Shown: one piece after another, positions 1 to 15,060 of the stretch
How the letters are laid out: each line of letters starts with the position of its first letter
Numbering within the stretch: the first letter of the stretch is position 1
DNA from: Paraburkholderia caffeinilytica
GTDB lineage: Bacteria > Pseudomonadota > Gammaproteobacteria > Burkholderiales > Burkholderiaceae
NCBI RefSeq assembly: GCF_003368325.1
Contig: NZ_CP031467.1
Coordinates: forward strand, 372,001-436,000
Reading direction: 5' to 3'
DNA length: 64,000 bases
Translations under genes and position numbers: made by a program
The notes under the pieces: generated by a model
What the model was told of the DNA's origin: nothing
What the model saw: only the letters and a program-made list of their open reading frames with translations
Databases searched by the model: none

Positions 1-1091
1 CGCTTTTTCCGGGAGAACAGTGGTCTCATCTGATGCGCGGGTGGCGCGTGGCGAGGTCCGGATGTCGCCCATAGAATCGCGACCGAGTTATTCGGAGCAT
101 TGTGATAAAGCACAACAGGCAGCCCGCACGCCCTATAGCCATACCAGACATCCTTCTTGAGATGCTCGTCCTCAATTGAAGGGTCGTAGCAGTCTTTGAG
201 CAACCTGACCAGATCCGCCGGACCGTTGTCGTCAATCACAATGTCATTACTGAGGATGGCAGAAAAAGTCGATTCGAAGCGGAACGCTCCGGTTGCAACG
301 CGGAATCGGCCAATGGCATCGTCCACGGTTCCCGTCGCGCGGCTGGAGGCCAGGTAGTGGTGAATATGGATACAGCAGTCGGCGGTAAGCGACGTGCCAA
401 GCCGCCCTTGGTTCTGGTCGCAGAAGACAGGGATCTTCCCCTTCCACTCGCCCTTCTCGTTCTGCCGAATGAGCGTAGCACCCGATGCGGTGAAATCATC
501 GATCAGGCAGACGCGTTCAAACATTGCCGCCTCGTCGCAGAAACCCCGTTTGTCTAGACGCTCACGCAAGGCCTCGTTCAACTTCTTCCACTTCTCGTTT
601 GATATTTCGCTGGCAGCCACAACCTGCTCCGTGGAAACGCGCCCTTCGTTATCTCGACGAAATATGTCAATCTTCGCCCCGTCACTCAACCCAACATAAA
701 GCGTCCGGATCCCGATCAATTCGAGGTGACGTTCGGCCGCCTTATTGCCCCACGTTCTATACAGAGGTACGCCCAACTGCTTCGCCACCTCGGTGCGCAT
801 GCAGCGCAGAAGCACTGGCATTGTCAGATCCACCAGATGATGCATTTCGCCCTGACTGACAAATACAAGCTGCTTTCGAAGAAAGCTGTAGGCCGTCGTG
901 CGATCCTTCCGGGCGAACTGCCCAAGCCAGGCGAGAAGGTTCACGTAAAAGCGCGCTCCGGGACTGTAGCCCTGGTAATGGTCATATTTGGCGCCGACCA
1001 TCAGCCGCAACCAGGCAAACTCTTCTGTTGCCCGGGTCTCGTCCCATTCCATCAGGTCTGCCAGCAGGCGCATGGCAAGTTGTGCCTTCAT
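1..1091 (-). CDS. Phosphoribosyltransferase-like protein (partial)
   Basis: The frame is open from an ATG at 1091 to the left edge (363 codons, no stop), so the C-terminus lies outside the window. The key motif is CLIDDFTASGAT at about residues 195-206. It matches the type I phosphoribosyltransferase PRPP-binding loop: hydrophobic residues, two acidic residues, then small-Gly-x-Thr. The N-terminal 180 residues look helical and resemble no domain I know. The ATG overlaps the stop of the upstream SIS-HAD gene as ATGA, so the two are translationally coupled. I infer transfer of a phosphoribosyl group, or binding of PRPP, in the same pathway as the SIS-HAD protein. The substrate is unknown. It is not a housekeeping Apt, Hpt, Upp or PyrE by length or by the sequence around the loop. 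Confidence 0.72.
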   Translation of the reverse strand, partial: MKAQLAMRLLADLMEWDETRATEEFAWLRLMVGAKYDHYQGYSPGARFYVNLLAWLGQFARKDRTTAYSFLRKQLVFVSQGEMHHLVDLTMPVLLRCMRTEVAKQLGVPLYRTWGNKAAERHLELIGIRTLYVGLSDGAKIDIFRRDNEGRVSTEQVVAASEISNEKWKKLNEALRERLDKRGFCDEAAMFERVCLIDDFTASGATLIRQNEKGEWKGKIPVFCDQNQGRLGTSLTADCCIHIHHYLASSRATGTVDDAIGRFRVATGAFRFESTFSAILSNDIVIDDNGPADLVRLLKDCYDPSIEDEHLKKDVWYGYRACGLPVVLYHNAPNNSVAILWATSGPRHAPPAHQMRPLFSRKK

Positions 1092-3142
1092 CTTTCAAAC
1101 CCCGGCACTGTCAGAATTGCACGAACATGTTCGATAAACTCCGGCGCAAACCGCAGCGCCCCTCCTTCGATCACGAGCGCCTTGAGGTAAAACCGCGTAC
1201 CCTGCGCGCCCATCAGGCCTAGAGGCAGAAAATTCCAGCAGGCGTCCCTCGCAATCGAGACACCATTTACACTGAGGCCCAGACCTGCGTTGAGAAATTC
1301 ATAATCGTTACCCTCGATGTCACCCGAATCTCCCAGCCTCAGAATTTCGTCATCGCGACCACAACCAACGGTCGCGGCAATGGCCGAAACAACTCTGTCC
1401 TTACCCGCAGATTCTGTGAGCACGTCTATTGAGTGGCCGGAATAAAAAATTCTCCATCCCCCATACCCTTTGGTGTTGAGCCATTGGCGCACGTAGGCCC
1501 CAACGCGGTACTTCGCTGAGTGATCACGAATTCGGAGGCTCAACTGCCCTTCGCCAATTTTCGGCGACGACTTCAACGCGCCGAGCAGGGTTGACTCGGT
1601 CAACCACTCGGTCAACTCGACGAACCTCGGGTCCGGCTTACCCTGCACCGGCGCCGCCGCGGCGAGACCAGATACGATCGACCCACTATAAAAACCGATC
1701 GTGATCCGCTCCCACAGTCCCTCATCCAGCTTGCCCCGCAGATCATCGTGCAGCGAATCACCTCGACCTGTTGCAAAGCCGATCGGAAATCCGGCACCTG
1801 CTATACGCGCAATTTCCGATATAAGGCAGGCATCCAGCCCCTCAAACCGGAGGTCTGTGTTGCAGAACGTTCCGTCGAAATCGCAAACCAGTGCACGAAA
1901 TCGGGCCCGCTCAAGCCGGTTGGCGAACGCAACGCCGGCCAGCCTGAATGTTTCGTAGGTCGCGCGCGGCGCATTCACGTTTCGTACTTTCCGCACGAGA
2001 GCAGGCGGCCAGCCACCTCGCCCGCGAACGGCCATACGGACGTCCGATGCGTGTAATGCCCGCCCGAACTCCGGAACGTCGGGCTGTCCCGGGTCAATCC
2101 CACGGCGTTGGGACAGGATGTCAGTTACCAGGATTGCATCGATCACACTGACGATTTCTGCGAGTGCATGCTCGGTTGGCAGGTCGAGCCGAATGACAGG
2201 CACATCTGCAGGAAACGTCCCTATCGTCGCCTGCGCCAGAATCCGGTCCCGAGGTGACTCAAACGAGACAAAGCACGGCGCGAGTTCCCGATTGGCCAGC
2301 TGCAGGTGACGGCCATGTGCGAACTGCCTAAAATCGACCTTCTGAACCACACCGATCGCCGATTCGGCAATCTTCGATTCGATATCGATCGCACCTGCTA
2401 TGCCGTCCCTGCCATAAAGCACGCAAATGTGACGGCCAGCGTCGACCGCGTCTCCTAGTCCCTGTTCCGCAATCTGCCCGCGACGCTGCTCAAGCCACTG
2501 CCCATCAATCTGCTCGAGATATCGTTGCAAGCCATCAATCGAGTATCCGCGCGCGACGAGGATCATCGTTGCGATCAGCGAGTTGGTCGCGAGATATCCA
2601 TCTTTTCCCCAGGGAGCCGCGAAAGCGGCAACGGTCGCGCCCGATGCGCGGAGCCTGTCCGCCAGCGGGCTTTCGGGCGCCAGCGTCAGCGCGAACCCCG
2701 GAATCTCCAGCGTCAGCATGTGCCGACTGGCAGCGAGAACATCCTTGTTCTTGCCTTCGGCTGAAACCAGAACGACCGCGCAGTCCTCCGGCCGCGTCTC
2801 ATGCGCAAGCAGTTCAACGGGGGTCGACTGGCGTGAAATCCGCCCGAACTCCGATTCGTGAAGTTGGGCTAGAAAGGCTGCCGAGGTCGACGAACCTCCC
2901 GAACCAACTGCAAGCAGACTCCGCCCTGAGTTGGCCGCGATAACCCGTGTCAAAAGGTCGACGTTTTGCTCAAGCGCCCAACGTATTGCGCTCGGCAGGT
3001 ATGCAATTTCCTCGGCAAACTGCTTTCCCATCCCCGGTAGTCTCTCAAATTCTCGTTTGTCTTCTGTCTTAATATAAGCCGATCGCGCGGCGGCGATCAC
3101 ATTAACATTAAAACGCGGGGCTAACGAGGAAGGATAGATCAT
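1088..3142 (-). CDS. SIS domain - HAD phosphatase fusion protein
   Basis: This is a protein of about 684 aa with two enzyme-like halves. The N-terminal half carries a sugar-isomerase (SIS) fold signature, GSGGSST at about residues 80-86, followed by a second SIS-like stretch with an acidic VSAEGKN turn. The C-terminal half is a Cof-type HAD phosphatase: DFDGT near 421, GFATGRGDS near 455, a lysine in GKDR near 580, and GDSGDIEGND near 604-613. All four HAD motifs are present. SIS domains bind or isomerise phosphosugars and HAD enzymes remove phosphate, so the protein plausibly processes a sugar phosphate. It is the first gene of a pair coupled to a phosphoribosyltransferase-like gene. I prefer the ATG at 3142, which follows a GGACGGGG stretch; an in-frame ATG at 3181 is possible. 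Confidence 0.78.
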   Translation of the reverse strand: MIYPSSLAPRFNVNVIAAARSAYIKTEDKREFERLPGMGKQFAEEIAYLPSAIRWALEQNVDLLTRVIAANSGRSLLAVGSGGSSTSAAFLAQLHESEFGRISRQSTPVELLAHETRPEDCAVVLVSAEGKNKDVLAASRHMLTLEIPGFALTLAPESPLADRLRASGATVAAFAAPWGKDGYLATNSLIATMILVARGYSIDGLQRYLEQIDGQWLEQRRGQIAEQGLGDAVDAGRHICVLYGRDGIAGAIDIESKIAESAIGVVQKVDFRQFAHGRHLQLANRELAPCFVSFESPRDRILAQATIGTFPADVPVIRLDLPTEHALAEIVSVIDAILVTDILSQRRGIDPGQPDVPEFGRALHASDVRMAVRGRGGWPPALVRKVRNVNAPRATYETFRLAGVAFANRLERARFRALVCDFDGTFCNTDLRFEGLDACLISEIARIAGAGFPIGFATGRGDSLHDDLRGKLDEGLWERITIGFYSGSIVSGLAAAAPVQGKPDPRFVELTEWLTESTLLGALKSSPKIGEGQLSLRIRDHSAKYRVGAYVRQWLNTKGYGGWRIFYSGHSIDVLTESAGKDRVVSAIAATVGCGRDDEILRLGDSGDIEGNDYEFLNAGLGLSVNGVSIARDACWNFLPLGLMGAQGTRFYLKALVIEGGALRFAPEFIEHVRAILTVPGFER

Positions 3143-3644
3143 TGTCCCCGTCCAGCCTAGGACTAGCGCCGGAGGCGCCATCAGTCATCATTTTACGTTC
3201 AGTTTAACCAGCCGCGGTAATAGCTCGCCCCGTGTTTCGCAACTTGTTGCAGAGTTGGCAGAAACGCGGGCAACCAGTGGGGTTCTAAGCCATTTTCTCG
3301 CTACTGCAAGCCGGACTAAATATGCAAAACGCATACCGACCAGACTCCTCCCAACGCTGACGCCCTGGGAGCGTGCTTTCGCGCTGTGGGTCGCGCCGCG
3401 TCCCGCATCTCACACCTGCCAAGCATGAGTCCTTGGCACTGCAGTAAACAACGCTCAACTTCCAGCTGAGCGCAGCCGACATGGCTACTGGCGTACTGCG
3501 CCGTTACATTCAGAACACTCGTGCACTATCCATACCGCAGATACCCGGTCCGTCAAATACCCGAGTCCTGACCCGTTTTGCATTTGATATCGGGTTCATC
3601 GGGAAAACCGCTGCTCTTCAACCACTTGTGATTCCATCCAGAAA

Positions 3645-7527: not shown

Positions 7528-8189
7528 CCCGTGCGGGCGGACGGCACGCCGTCCGCCCGTCCCCAATGGATACCTGCCCACCATCCCGCCAGCCCACCCG
7601 CGCCTGCCGCCAGCAGCATCACGACCAGCCCGCCAGCGACCAGTCCGTAACACGCCCGCATGATCCTCCGCTCGACTGACGCGAGCGCCGCATCGAGCCG
7701 CTGCCGCTGCTCGCGCGCGGCAACCGCAGTTGCGCCCACGATCCGGTTTCCGGCAACGCGAGCAATGTGGCTCGCCGCCCGCTGCGTAAGCGCAGCCAGC
7801 GCCTCATCATTCAGCGCTGCAAGCGCGGCCCGGTAGCGCGCCTCGTGCTCATCGGTCATCTGTCCGGCCAGTTCGATCGTGGCCTTGCAGCGCGCGAGCG
7901 CGTCACGATGCTGAGTCATGAGCGCATCCGTCGCTGCCCGTGCCTCCGTCCGCATGGCATCCAGGCTGCCCGCGCCTGCCTGCCGGACGCGCTCCGGCAT
8001 GGTCTCGTAGAGTCGCCCGTAGTGCTCGAGCATGACCAGCACAGACCACAGCGCATCGTTGTCACGCAGGTTGAGTGCGCCTGATATCCGCCGCATTCGC
8101 AGCACACTGGCGTCGTCGGGTAATTCGCCGGTGACGTCGAGAAACAGGGAGGCAAGCGCATCTACCGGCCTGCCCTGCCCGTTATCCAT
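7428..8189 (-). CDS. TraM-like membrane-anchored coiled-coil transfer protein
   Basis: The product of 253 aa starts at an ATG that overlaps the end of the traL-like gene by 8 bases. It has a helical, charged body with coiled-coil character (residues about 80-175) and one clear transmembrane segment near the C-terminus (about 181-206, rich in G, A, V and L). That is the architecture of IncP TraM, the third gene of the traK-traL-traM operon beside oriT, though this protein is longer. It probably helps link the relaxosome to the membrane or stabilises transfer. The last 33 residues overlap a small gene on the other strand and are of low complexity, so the original stop may have been earlier. Confidence 0.5.
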   Translation of the reverse strand: MDNGQGRPVDALASLFLDVTGELPDDASVLRMRRISGALNLRDNDALWSVLVMLEHYGRLYETMPERVRQAGAGSLDAMRTEARAATDALMTQHRDALARCKATIELAGQMTDEHEARYRAALAALNDEALAALTQRAASHIARVAGNRIVGATAVAAREQRQRLDAALASVERRIMRACYGLVAGGLVVMLLAAGAGGLAGWWAGIHWGRADGVPSARTGHTSSASPSMNATARRSIPATVSFWTKAIIDGR

Positions 8190-8874
8190 CGACCGTGACC
8201 TTGGCAAACATGGCATCGCACAACGAACGCCAACGCAATAGCTCGACCCGCTCACCGATATGCATCGTCTCCGCCGCCTTGCGGATCGACATGCGCTGGC
8301 TGCGAAGCTCGTCGGCAACCCGATCGGCGAGATCGGGAAAGTCCAGCGAATGACCGCGCGCTTCGATGGAGCGGCGAAGCTGCGATCCCTGATATAGCGT
8401 GAACTTTTCCGCCGGACCGAAGTAGCCATTGCGTACGACATTCGTCACCGCGTCCGGGAACGTCTCGCTGAAAGCGTTCAGAAGTTCAAGGCTGTCACGT
8501 TGCCGGTTGATCACCCACAGGACAACAAGCCGACGCCGAAGCTCGCCAAGCGCGCCGGCCAGCGTTGCGCCGAACTGCTCGACACCCATCTGGCTCCGCG
8601 CCGCCGTGTTGACTACGATCACGGCATCCCGTTGCTCATCGCAGAAATTGACGAGACCGATCCAGCCGTCTGCATCGTCCAGGTTGTAGGCGACGCAACG
8701 CATCTCATCCTGAACCGCTTTCATCACGTCCGGATTTGAGGTATCGGTTTCTACCAACGCCGCATGTATATCCCGCCGCAGGAGATAATCGACCAGCGCG
8801 AGTGCAACAAAGCTCTTGCCGACACCTCCCTTGCTGCCACCGACGAGATAGATCGGGTAAGTCGTCATGTCCAT
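8182..8874 (-). CDS. TraL-like ParA-family ATPase
   Basis: This P-loop ATPase of 230 aa has a deviant Walker A motif, GGSKGGVGKS at residues 11-20, typical of the ParA/MinD/StbB/TraL group. It is followed by a VETDTSNPDV switch-like segment near 40-49. Its size matches IncP TraL (about 240 aa). The gene lies between a TraK-like and a TraM-like gene, the order of the IncP oriT leading operon. GAGG precedes the ATG at 8874. A role in plasmid stability (StbB-like) is the main alternative; both groups act next to an oriT. It is separate from the ParB-like gene and on the opposite strand, so it is less likely to be that protein's partner. Confidence 0.65.
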   Translation of the reverse strand: MDMTTYPIYLVGGSKGGVGKSFVALALVDYLLRRDIHAALVETDTSNPDVMKAVQDEMRCVAYNLDDADGWIGLVNFCDEQRDAVIVVNTAARSQMGVEQFGATLAGALGELRRRLVVLWVINRQRDSLELLNAFSETFPDAVTNVVRNGYFGPAEKFTLYQGSQLRRSIEARGHSLDFPDLADRVADELRSQRMSIRKAAETMHIGERVELLRWRSLCDAMFAKVTVDG

Positions 8875-8883
8875 TTGGATCCT

Positions 8884-9348
8884 CTAAAGGTTCTCGGTGT
8901 CGGGCCGTATCTCGAATGAGAACTGGTCGCGCATCACCATGCTTCCGGGCTTGCTGACTGGCTTTCCCCCATCCTGCTTCTGAATCTCTCTGGCAGCCTC
9001 CGCGCGCGGTACGTTGTCCTTGCTCAACCTCTTCACACGGGGTAATGGCGCGGCATCGCCTCGTGCCGATTCCTTTGCAACCTGTCGAACTGGCTTGTCT
9101 TGCTTCGAGGGATATAACGCGTACTTGACCGAGCCAACGCTAAAATCGACGCCCCTCTTCCTTGCATGTTCAACGATTTCTTCCAGCGTATATCCCTTCT
9201 TTCTCACCGCACCGATCACCGGACGCATCTCTTTCATCGCATCGGTAATCGAGACGCGCTGCTCGGCCTCTGGCTTGACCGGCAGCGATTCCAGAGAGCG
9301 GGCAAGTTCATCCCATTGCGCTCGGGTATAGCTTTTCGCAACCGGCAT
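8884..9348 (-). CDS. TraK-like oriT-binding protein
   Basis: This basic protein of 154 aa has a central segment, GYTLEEIVEHARKRGVDFSVGSVKYAL (split: GYTLEEIVEHA at about 57-67, GVDFSVGSVKYAL at 71-83). It resembles the region of IncP TraK and related small DNA-binding transfer proteins where a long helix is followed by a G-F-S turn. IncP TraK binds oriT and wraps DNA near nic. The C-terminal half is charged and probably disordered. It is the first gene of the three-gene minus-strand operon and faces the non-coding region proposed as oriT. A GGAGAG ribosome site precedes the ATG at 9348. Confidence 0.6.
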   Translation of the reverse strand: MPVAKSYTRAQWDELARSLESLPVKPEAEQRVSITDAMKEMRPVIGAVRKKGYTLEEIVEHARKRGVDFSVGSVKYALYPSKQDKPVRQVAKESARGDAAPLPRVKRLSKDNVPRAEAAREIQKQDGGKPVSKPGSMVMRDQFSFEIRPDTENL

Positions 9349-9767
9349 GGCTCTCTCCGTCGTGCTCTCTTCACTCCATCTTGTTCACTCAGGAATACCC
9401 CGTCAATACCTGCTTTTTGGTCAGATTTTCGCTATCGGAACGTCATGGAATCAGACGAATCGCGTCGGAATAAAAGAAATATTTTGGACGCGTCTGGCAG
9501 GAGCAACTGGCGCAAGCTGGCGTCCGGAAAACGCATGGAAAGACTTCAGGCAGACGCCACGACGGCGAGTTGCCGAACCACTCCTACCATCGGACAGAGG
9601 CGCTCTGACCATCAGGATGGGCCCGAGGAACTGCGCGCCGACAGCAACACGACGAGTTCGCAGACTACATCCCTTGCCCAACGGACTCCCGATAGCCCTG
9701 ATGACATACCGTCGGGACTGGCCGTGCGGATTTTGGGAAATCCAAAGCCGCCCGAAGCTGGATCCAC

Positions 9768-9799
9768 GTTACCGATTCAGCGCATGCGGTTACCGACTC
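9768..9799 (+). repeat. Two 11-bp direct repeats in the oriT region
   Basis: GTTACCGATTC (9768-9778) and GTTACCGACTC (9789-9799) differ at one base and are spaced 21 bases apart, two helical turns. Both are followed by a GC-x-ATG-like stretch. They could be binding sites for the TraK-like protein. Confidence 0.4.
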
Positions 9800-10066
9800 C
9801 AGCTATGACCGTCGCAGACACCTGTTATTCAAATATCGGTCGTGGACCAGATCATTGCGCAGCAATCGGCTCGCCCGTACGCAGACTCGATCAATCGACC
9901 ATCCCACGCTCACGCGGCGTGGTACGCCGTCGCGCAAAGAGAGAGACCATCGGACTCGTTGCGAGTGTCCCGTAGACACCGGTGAATATCTCACGGACAT
10001 ATCCGACCGACCTCGCCGAAAGCGTTTAGCTGGCGGATAAATAAACAACATCGAGACGAGGGATGG

Positions 10067-10072
10067 CAGGAT
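10067..10072 (-). other. Candidate nic site
   Basis: On the minus strand the sequence reads CCAATCCTG|CCATCC, close to the MOBP nic consensus YATCCTG|Y and to RP4 CCTATCCTG|CCC. The base before ATCCTG is A rather than a pyrimidine. A flanking inverted repeat like the RP4 TraJ site is weak. The MOBP-like relaxase encoded at 32049-33062 makes this type of nic plausible. A second copy at 9613-9618 (C-ATCCTG-A) is less similar. Confidence 0.35.
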
Positions 10073-10146
10073 TGGCTTCCGCCGGTTTTGGTCGCCATGG
10101 GCACATTTTCAGACTGCCGGTCTATGGCGCATGCTGTACGAAAATC

Positions 10147-13527: not shown

Positions 13528-15060
13528 TCAGGCAGCCATGCCCGTCGCGTTAGCCAGATTGGTTTCATTGACATCGGCATGGCGCAGCACACCAGTCGGG
13601 CGTCCGTCCAGATCGAAGGCGAGCACCGTATCGCACAGTTCGACGAGTTCGACATACTCCGTCGACCACCAGACCACGGCCGTGCCCTGCGCGGCCATCT
13701 TGCGGATCAGCGCGTAGATCTCGCGCTTGGTGCGGATATCGACGCCGCGCGTCGGCTCTTCGAGCACCAGCAGCTTCGGCTTGAGCGTGAGCCATCTCGC
13801 GACGAGCAACTTCTGCTGCGTGCCGCCGCTCAACGTAGATGGCAGATCCCAGAGCGAGCCGGCGCGAATGTTCAACGCTTCGAGAAGCCGCGTGCCCTGT
13901 TGCACTTCCTGCTTGTGCGCAACGTTACGGCGCTCGACGATACGCTGCGCCGCGACGAGGTTATCGACAATAGGCAGTGTTTCGAGGATGCCCTTGTTCG
14001 CACGGTCGCCCGAGATGAAGCCGACGCCATCGCGCGCCGCCGCGGACGGACTCGTGTAGGCCACCGTCGCGCCATTGCGCTTCAAGTTCCATGCATGATC
14101 GGCGGCGAGTCCCGTCAATGCGGTGATCAGCGCGGACGGCCCCGTAGGCGCACCCGCCAGTCCCATGATCGAACCCGGCCGGATGTCCACGCCTATGCCT
14201 TCGTGTTCGATCGTGATCGTGTCGCCTTCGCTGATGCTGAGGGTCGCGTGGCCATCACTTACGTCGTGCGTCTGCGTCGCGTTAATAGCGATCGCATTCG
14301 CCTGCTCGTCGGGTTCGACACTTTGCCCCATGCATTCGACAATCTCGCGGTCGGTGATCGCATCAAGCGCAACGCGGTCGACAGCCGTCTTGCCGTCGCG
14401 GATGATCGTGCAGACGTCGGCGATCTGACGGATCTCGCGCATCCGGTGCGAGACGAACAGCACCGCAAGCCCGGTGTCCGCGATCAGCCGGCGAATGACC
14501 GCAAAGAGACGGGCGGTTTCGGCCGCAGTGAGGTTCGCCGTGGGTTCGTCGAGCAGCAACAGCTTTGCGCCCGAACCGAGCGAGCGCGCAATCTCGACGA
14601 GTTGCCGCTCATGCAGCGTCAAATCACCCACCAGACGTTCGGCGGATTGGCGTGCGAAATGCGGGTCGATCAGTGACAGCGCGTCGATCGCAATCACTTT
14701 CGCTGCGCGCTCGCTGTATTTCTGCGTCGCGCGCCGCAAGCGCGGCATCGCGATGTTTTCAGTGACCGACAAATGCGGCAGCAGCGCAAGTTCCTGGTTC
14801 ACCACTGCGATTGCGCCCGCTTCAACATGCGCGGCGGCGGAAGCGCCGATCTCCTTGCCGTCGAATTCGAGCGTGCCGCCATCGCGTTCGTGCTGGCCGG
14901 AGATGATCTTGATGAGCGTGGACTTGCCCGCGCCATTCCCACCGAGGAACGCATGCACCTCGCCCGGTGCGATCGACAGATCAAATCCTCTTAACACGCT
15001 CGTCGGGCCGAAGCTCTTGACGATCGAGCGTGCCGACAACACATACGGCGGTTGAGTCAT
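13528..15060 (-). CDS. RbsA-type sugar ABC transporter ATPase
   Basis: The product of 510 aa has two ABC domains, typical of RbsA/XylG. The first has Walker A GGNGAGKS near residue 40, a signature-like LTLHERQLVEIARSL, and Walker B LLLLDEPTANL. The second has the signature LSGGTQQK and Walker B LLVLEEPTRGVD, but its Walker A region (LAGAPTGPS) is degenerate, as usual for the second half of this family. The start was taken at the ATG at 15060, preceded by TGGAG; the longer open frame upstream lacks family sequence. It is the first gene of the operon and lies divergently from the LysR gene. Confidence 0.87.
   Translation of the reverse strand: MTQPPYVLSARSIVKSFGPTSVLRGFDLSIAPGEVHAFLGGNGAGKSTLIKIISGQHERDGGTLEFDGKEIGASAAAHVEAGAIAVVNQELALLPHLSVTENIAMPRLRRATQKYSERAAKVIAIDALSLIDPHFARQSAERLVGDLTLHERQLVEIARSLGSGAKLLLLDEPTANLTAAETARLFAVIRRLIADTGLAVLFVSHRMREIRQIADVCTIIRDGKTAVDRVALDAITDREIVECMGQSVEPDEQANAIAINATQTHDVSDGHATLSISEGDTITIEHEGIGVDIRPGSIMGLAGAPTGPSALITALTGLAADHAWNLKRNGATVAYTSPSAAARDGVGFISGDRANKGILETLPIVDNLVAAQRIVERRNVAHKQEVQQGTRLLEALNIRAGSLWDLPSTLSGGTQQKLLVARWLTLKPKLLVLEEPTRGVDIRTKREIYALIRKMAAQGTAVVWWSTEYVELVELCDTVLAFDLDGRPTGVLRHADVNETNLANATGMAA

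Follow-up and report, generated by a model that had tools for sequence, protein, structure and literature searches.

A SIS-HAD and phosphoribosyltransferase gene pair of Paraburkholderia caffeinilytica forms one end of a mobile six-gene unit with a possible role in conflict

Introduction

What could unite a sugar isomerase-phosphatase fusion with a phosphoribosyltransferase (PRTase) when their genes overlap beside a plasmid-like region? This question is raised by the left end of a 64,000-nucleotide stretch of Paraburkholderia caffeinilytica (contig NZ_CP031467.1, positions 372,001 to 436,000; hereafter the window), where a gene encoding fused SIS and HAD domains (SIS-HAD) is followed by a gene for a PRTase of the PRTase-CE family. 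A first-pass annotation of the sequence had taken the two for a set that builds, edits or destroys a ribosylated small molecule, perhaps as a plasmid-borne stress or anti-phage function. Our analysis partly supports this interpretation. The pair belongs to a six-gene unit that is kept together while its order is reshuffled, is often found on plasmids and here lies in a region resembling a conjugative element. We suggest that the unit may be a mobile conflict (anti-phage or anti-plasmid) system driven by PRTase-CE, a reading to which we give an even chance of being correct.

Results

The gene pair is one end of a six-gene unit

The features described from the sequence were confirmed: a protein with SIS and HAD motifs (GSGGSST, DFDGT and GDSGDIEGND) is encoded by a gene that overlaps by ATGA the gene of a protein with a binding loop for phosphoribosyl pyrophosphate (PRPP; Table 1). 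The PRTase-CE start (1091) lies within this overlap, and the end that had been assigned to the pair (3142) is close to the start of the SIS-HAD open reading frame (ORF) at 3181. However, the two genes are not a set of their own. The operon runs on the minus strand past the left window edge and comprises SIS-HAD, PRTase-CE, an ORC-CDC6-like ATPase, CARF6 and PfkB, and the 3′ end of a convergent NADAR gene overlaps the PfkB gene by 27 bp. The CARF6 profile (PDLC01916) covers residues 8-357, nearly the whole protein. When compared to the nearest relative found (L002), the ratios of nonsynonymous to synonymous substitution rates (dN/dS) of the six genes were 0.059-0.172 (0.099 and 0.105 for SIS-HAD and PRTase, respectively, which are both under purifying selection); the possibility of chance ORFs was rejected on these values.

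Table 1. Features of the unit and its surroundings. Positions refer to the window unless a locus handle precedes them; L010 is the P. caffeinilytica locus (G000:C2:358001-376000), and its position 14001 is window position 1.
Feature	Position	Strand	Remarks
SIS-HAD gene	1088..3181	minus	ORF of 697 aa; probable true start 3031, giving 647 aa
Tandem SIS domain, phosphosugar isomerase/deaminase type	about residues 51-385 of SIS-HAD		
Predicted HAD phosphatase domain	about residues 425-690 of SIS-HAD		fused C-terminal to SIS
GSGGSST, phosphosugar-binding motif	2885..2905	minus	residues 93-99, first SIS half
DFDGT, HAD motif I	1868..1882	minus	residues 434-438
GDSGDIEGND, HAD motif IV	1304..1333	minus	residues 617-626
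PRTase-CE gene	1..1091	minus	369 aa; last 19 bases left of window; full extent L010:13982-15091
PRPP-binding loop CLIDDFTASGAT	474..509	minus	PRTase residues 195-206
HNAPNNS motif	84..104	minus	residues 330-336; conserved in PRTase homologues
ORC-CDC6-like ATPase	L010:12079-13989	minus	PF24389, 39.5 bits; 636 aa; 8-bp overlap
CARF6 protein	L010:10976-12082	minus	PADLOC, 500.5 bits; 368 aa; 4-bp overlap
PfkB kinase	L010:9892-11016	minus	PF00294, 61.5 bits; overlaps CARF6 gene
NADAR	L010:9274-9918	plus	PF08719, 99 bits; convergent
Type II CBASS	L010:2266-8838		HNH-SAVED and WYL regulator on one strand; CD-NTase, E1-E2 and JAB on the other
Known or likely defence neighbour	L010 (own locus)		type II CBASS
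Known or likely defence neighbour	L002		WYL with E1-E2 gene
Known or likely defence neighbour	L006		type I restriction
Known or likely defence neighbour	L029		PD-T4-6-like kinase
Known or likely defence neighbour	L037		Shedu
Known or likely defence neighbour	L035		caspase-family gene
Known or likely defence neighbour	L043		multiubiquitin-ThiF set

Gene content is conserved while gene order varies

With the same profiles we tabulated 32 loci, L015 and L042 being counted as one and the broken L034 being included. Eight (L002-L009) had been discovered via SIS-HAD, L043 via SIS-HAD and PRTase, 22 via CARF6, and one is the P. caffeinilytica locus itself. As nine loci besides our own were found with SIS-HAD, the count for this gene is favoured. 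SIS-HAD was present in 31 of the 32 loci and in 21 of the 22 discovered via CARF6, L027, whose contig begins only with the PRTase, being the exception in both cases. The trio of PRTase, ORC-like ATPase and CARF6 was found in 30/32 loci, and the other two (L004 and L030) are cut by contig ends. PfkB was present in 29/32; L004 is cut, and the stretches examined of L032 and L038 contain none. NADAR was found in 20/32 loci. There was none in the stretch examined of L013, L014, L018, L019, L031, L036, L037, L039 and L043, and it was unseen at the cut contig ends of L004, L026 and L030. When the eight relatives on genome contigs (found with SIS-HAD) were compared to the operon proteins, seven harboured all six genes and the eighth, L004, ends inside the PRTase. 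The pair proposed from the sequence is conserved across genomes, and its further constant companions are the ORC-CDC6-like ATPase, CARF6 and usually PfkB.

The gene order, on the other hand, is variable: SIS-HAD stands 5′ or 3′ of the trio, PfkB at times precedes the PRTase, and NADAR occurs at either end of the unit and on either strand. Because gene content is kept while order is reshuffled, we argue for a joint function of the genes. A small helix-turn-helix regulator is encoded divergently beside NADAR in L016, L017, L033 and L042 and is a possible control gene of the unit.

The same linkage was seen in larger samples. In a phylum sample, the CARF6 and SIS-HAD searches found the identical 6 of 398 genomes, P. 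caffeinilytica included; the PRTase match was strong in five of these, and in the sixth (G298) a 4-kb contig ends first. Among 72,556 plasmid records, SIS-HAD and PRTase each matched 18, of which 17 were common to both. Of these 17, tblastn detected CARF6 in 16, and a profile match revealed it in the remaining one (Bradyrhizobium); by itself, it matched 16 plasmid records. Exceptions to the linkage on plasmids are a SIS-HAD relative in a sugar cluster (L040) and a lone plasmid PRTase (L041). These two and the loci L058 and L059 described below do not contain the six-gene unit and lie outside the 32-locus table, as do plasmid CP039919 and the short stretches L001, L011, L020-L025 and L044-L057, which mostly repeat counted loci (L056 is the distant reverse transcriptase). 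Protein distances correlated in all 15 family pairs (r 0.62-0.97, with 0/500 permutations as high for each pair), based on 15 to 26 loci per pair after exclusion of L034 and of L015 and L033, which have two trios; L042 and L043 were left out of both the distance matrices and the motif-pattern counts. Since shared descent alone raises such correlations, they indicate co-inheritance and not interaction.

The L040 relative (8435-10129) is encoded inside a cluster with a sugar ABC transporter and an aldose epimerase and is possibly a metabolic cousin of the fusion. It is one of the observations that would fit an ordinary operon for the catabolism of sugar phosphates or nucleosides, taken along as metabolic cargo, as do the presence of HAD and PfkB, both common sugar enzymes, and the resemblance of the SIS part to GlmS, NagB-II, AgaS-type and FrlB structures. 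However, the constant genes of the unit include no transporter, the sugar enzymes are linked near-strictly to PRTase-CE, the ORC-like ATPase and CARF6, and the distribution is sporadic, with no further full match in the 117 other genomes searched. We consider a catabolic operon very improbable.

The unit is rare and mobile

In a class sample, CARF6 was found in 1 of 369 genomes, our own. No record of the phage collection matched CARF6, and two viral contigs did. A search of 118 genomes, our own included, gave no other full match and one 140-residue match with two stops (L011). The named loci belong to Burkholderiales, Nitrosomonadales, Methylococcaceae, Hyphomicrobiales, Sphingomonas and Sulfitobacter, and one lies on an actinobacterial plasmid (Paenarthrobacter). 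The unit is rare and often plasmid-borne, in line with the plasmid location that had been suggested for the pair, and because the taxa are scattered and the 118-genome search gave no further full match, its distribution pattern is that of mobile cargo.

Single loci showed further features. L016, on a Bosea vestrisii plasmid, carries all six genes, and L013, from Pelagibacterium nitratireducens, carries five. L027 is a contig classed as viral that carries PRTase, ORC-like ATPase, CARF6, PfkB and NADAR genes and may be a plasmid or satellite; a further protein encoded on it has a 26-bit match to a DnaG-like DRT model. L034 (5954-12952) is a decaying copy with PRTase, CARF6 and SIS-HAD in broken frames. 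On six alphaproteobacterial plasmids (L013, L015, L033, L035, L036 and L037), the gene of an 'RHE_PE00001 family protein' lies no more than about 5 kb from the unit.

Mobile elements and defence genes adjoin the unit

On its window side, the P. caffeinilytica locus is flanked by genes for ParB, a ParA-like ATPase, DUF932, a VirD4-type coupling protein and a VirB4-type ATPase. Because partition, VirD4-type and VirB4-type genes adjoin it, we place the locus in a conjugative- or plasmid-like region. Genes typical of integrative and conjugative elements or plasmids, a PriCT_2 primase among them, occupy window positions 3980-47548 on this 4.53-Mb contig.

Beyond NADAR, the locus harbours a type II cyclic-oligonucleotide-based anti-phage signalling system (CBASS) with an HNH-SAVED effector, a CD-NTase, E1-E2 and JAB, and a WYL regulator. 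The first-pass annotation had looked to nearby defence genes as support for its reading. Known or likely ones are near the unit in at least seven of the 32 loci (Table 1), a count that comes from partly scanned flanks and has no random control. Of 20 flanking proteins scanned with PADLOC, 12 had no match at 0.001, while the other eight include two marginal matches (mad8), a transposition protein (TniQ) and a 26-bit match of the DnaG-like type; the flanks of the remaining loci were judged by annotation or lie outside the scan. These neighbours support a defence role but do not prove it. In L043 (209-6389; Bradyrhizobium), multiubiquitin, ThiF and DUF6527 genes and a gene for a 1356-aa protein are located directly upstream of the unit.

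The surroundings could also be read in terms of plasmid or element maintenance. The unit would then work by addiction or incompatibility, responding to loss of the carrier element or to replication of a competing replicon, and would not be primarily anti-phage. Several points speak for such a system: the unit occurs on plasmids and in the vicinity of genes for replication, partition or conjugation, an ATPase of the ORC-CDC6-like kind would be suited to sensing a replicon, and the phage collection gave no CARF6 match. Against it, the unit also lies close to CBASS, Shedu and type I restriction genes, and the PRTase has retron and TOPRIM relatives in defence settings (see below). We hold a maintenance function to be quite unlikely.

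Domains and motifs of the encoded proteins

Residue 51 of SIS-HAD (MGKQFAEE) is the first residue in 7 of 15 aligned homologues, and for this reason the true start is likely at 3031. The SIS part has a GlmS/NagB-II-like tandem SIS fold, and by its motifs I and IV the HAD part is predicted to be a phosphatase of the HAD superfamily. Both DxDGT and the loose motif IV pattern GDx[GA] are present in 28/29 SIS-HAD sequences, the exception being the broken L034, and KDG[YF]LA in 26/29. The L013 homologue scores above the cut-off for Hydrolase_3 (31.5 bits), whereas the window protein is below it (12.2 bits).

The PRTase matches Pfam PRTase-CE (PF24390) with 50.9 bits against a cut-off of 27 and PADLOC PRTase_III-A with 49.2 bits; Pfam lists no second PRTase family for it. 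The acidic pair of the PRPP loop is invariant in 16/16 aligned PRTases. Moreover, [DE]DF with a following [ST]G was found in every homologue with a readable loop region (L004 is cut off before the loop, and the PRTases of L034 and of the second L033 copy are fragmented), the form being DDF in all readable loops except the first L033 copy (EDF). A stricter loop pattern is present in 25 of 30 PRTases. The loop is intact in the window PRTase and its homologues, as the earlier reading presupposed, and because it is kept, PRTase-CE is likely to use PRPP.

This assignment bears on the link to tellurite-resistance (Ter) clusters that had been drawn for the pair, which was not supported. A Ter-type pathway to a nucleoside-like metabolite has the general idea of a PRTase plus a HAD protein in common with the unit, but the genome contains zero TerD matches and the PRTase matches PRTase-CE and no other PRTase family. 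Such a pathway seems extremely unlikely to us.

The PRTase search of the phylum sample gave two further weak matches outside the unit. One (L058:8000-10672) is a retron III-A-type PRTase with a winged-helix domain, directly followed by its reverse transcriptase. The other (L059:5879-10792) is a fusion of PRTase-CE with an OLD-like TOPRIM domain (7902-9449) and lies beside GajA and a dynamin-like GTPase.

The NADAR, the only PF08719 match in the whole genome, is of the YbiA type: its key Glu, a Lys seven residues on and a second Glu align with those of chains 2b3w and 8bau. The excerpt of PMC11543638 gives the active-site Glu, the Lys and the YbiA-family Glu of the P. nicotianae enzyme as E43, K50 and E125; we set this numbering on 8bau with a two-residue offset, which is our own interpretation. 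Across the loci, SEHx[YF]QxxK was found in 15/19 NADARs, the PfkB motif pattern in 26/27 PfkB sequences and CPxxPFP in 26/30 CARF6 sequences. The Walker pattern is present in 23/29 ORC-like ATPases, and the remaining six have a differently spaced P-loop, [AP]PG[GA]GK[TS].

A second trio and the question of a signal

Two loci contain a second PRTase-ORC-CARF6 trio without sugar enzymes of its own beside a full unit (L033:13930-18108 and L015:5794-10080); in L033, the PRTase of this second trio is split over two frames. The R. tumorigenes locus L015 was rejected as a trio lacking sugar enzymes altogether, as NADAR, SIS-HAD and PfkB lie just beyond its left edge (L042). Given the L042 genes, only the second trio copies are without a sugar-enzyme set of their own.

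These copies are relevant to a variant in which the unit makes a signal: PRTase-CE together with HAD, SIS and PfkB would synthesise a soluble nucleotide-like second messenger that is sensed by CARF6 and degraded by NADAR, with the ORC-like ATPase as effector or infection sensor. As a family, CARF proteins are nucleotide-ligand sensors (excerpt of PMC12715507), and almost all loci with the trio also have small-molecule enzymes. When the CD-NTase of our own locus was used as a tblastn query, it matched none of the eight stretches L002-L009, so such a cyclase is not a constant part of the unit. On the other hand, the second trios have no sugar enzymes of their own, although they could share the neighbouring set, PRTase-CE looks like an effector in its retron and TOPRIM settings, and such a messenger is not known. 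We regard a signal-making unit as somewhat unlikely.

Discussion

In the conflict system that we favour, the ORC-like AAA+ ATPase would sense an invading replicon, and CARF6 would bind a nucleotide signal and gate the response. PRTase-CE would be the engine, transferring phosphoribose from PRPP to an amine-bearing nucleobase, nucleotide or nucleic acid and thereby stopping growth or replication. The roles of sensor and effector are suggested by analogy with the DprA-PRTase pair, which protects against T7 and lambda and whose DprA is proposed as phage DNA sensor; the same excerpt describes retron PRTases as probable effectors with an unknown mode of action (PMC9122126).

What the sugar enzymes might do to the PRTase product is conjectural. 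PfkB kinases and FrlB-like SIS proteins form kinase-deglycase pairs for amine-linked sugars (FrlB/FrlD). PfkB and the tandem SIS part might similarly act as a kinase plus deglycase/isomerase pair, the HAD domain might take off a phosphate and NADAR might cleave the N-glycosidic bond of the product, so that the enzymes jointly finish an active compound or undo the modification. That SIS-HAD, PfkB and NADAR process a phosphoribosyl amine is suggested by this pairing and by NADAR chemistry. According to excerpts of PMC11543638, PMC11125620 and PMC11833690, NADARs hydrolyse N-glycosidic bonds and some are antitoxins that reverse guanine ADP-ribosylation, whereas others that were tested showed activity in vitro yet failed to rescue cells. 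The HAD part could also be an effector itself, by analogy with a CARF-HAD phosphatase that confers type III-A immunity as an effector depleting ATP and IMP (excerpt of PMC12715507).

A more specific form of this proposal would be a PRPP-dependent immunity. The ORC/CDC6-like ATPase would trigger the PRTase to phosphoribosylate nucleotides or bases of nucleic acid, a counterpart of the ADP-ribosylation that DarT carries out with NAD+; the YbiA-type NADAR, PfkB, the SIS deglycase and HAD would erase and salvage the adduct, with CARF6 as the switch. We consider this full scheme unlikely, and we know of no precedent for phosphoribosylation as a reversible immune modification of such kind. In any case, a PRTase of the retron III-A family is joined here to three sugar-phosphate and N-glycoside enzymes, and these companions offer a chemical hint at what a PRTase effector makes or modifies.

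Comparison with known systems

Against PADLOC (E ≤ 0.001), the proteins of the operon gave matches solely to PRTase_III-A, CARF6 and, in the case of NADAR, PDC-M42C, with no other PDC-M42 model for the remaining proteins. Since PADLOC or Pfam already has names for CARF6, PRTase-CE and the ORC-CDC6-like family, the components are known; the literature searched, which did not include the main CARF survey, contained no account of the six-gene unit.

Retrons of type III-A (PRTase effector, reverse transcriptase and winged helix) have the PRTase-CE domain in common with the unit, which contains an ORC-like ATPase, CARF6 and sugar enzymes instead of their other parts. A retron was rejected for this locus (about C2:372000), as the only RVT_1 match of the genome is at C2:2032251, 1.66 Mb away. 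The DprA-PRTase system likewise has a PRTase, the proposed effector, adjoining a putative DNA sensor, which is DprA and not an ORC-CDC6-like ATPase; the two are likened by description and not by alignment of the PRTases, and, unlike for our unit, the excerpt of PMC9122126 mentions no CARF or sugar enzymes. In the toxin-antitoxin pairs DarT1-NADAR and YarT-YbiA, a base- or ribosyl-modifying enzyme is also combined with a NADAR (excerpts of PMC11543638 and PMC11125620). The partner in our unit, however, probably uses PRPP and not NAD+, and NADAR is present in only a part of the loci. The type II CBASS that adjoins the locus is a separate gene set, although both contain proteins of a nucleotide-sensor type. 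As for the FrlB/FrlD-type kinase-deglycase pair, the comparison was made between the FrlB structure 8glr and the SIS part.

The genome had no match to Csm1-type Cas10 (TIGR02578), Cmr2-type Cas10 not being searched. A classification of CARF proteins was reportedly given by Makarova et al. in 2020. The P. caffeinilytica protein matches the CARF6--CARF_CARF_CARF models of PADLOC, and its partners are PRTase-CE, the ORC-CDC6-like ATPase, SIS-HAD, PfkB and NADAR, which gives the CARF6 family a defined partner set away from type III CRISPR.

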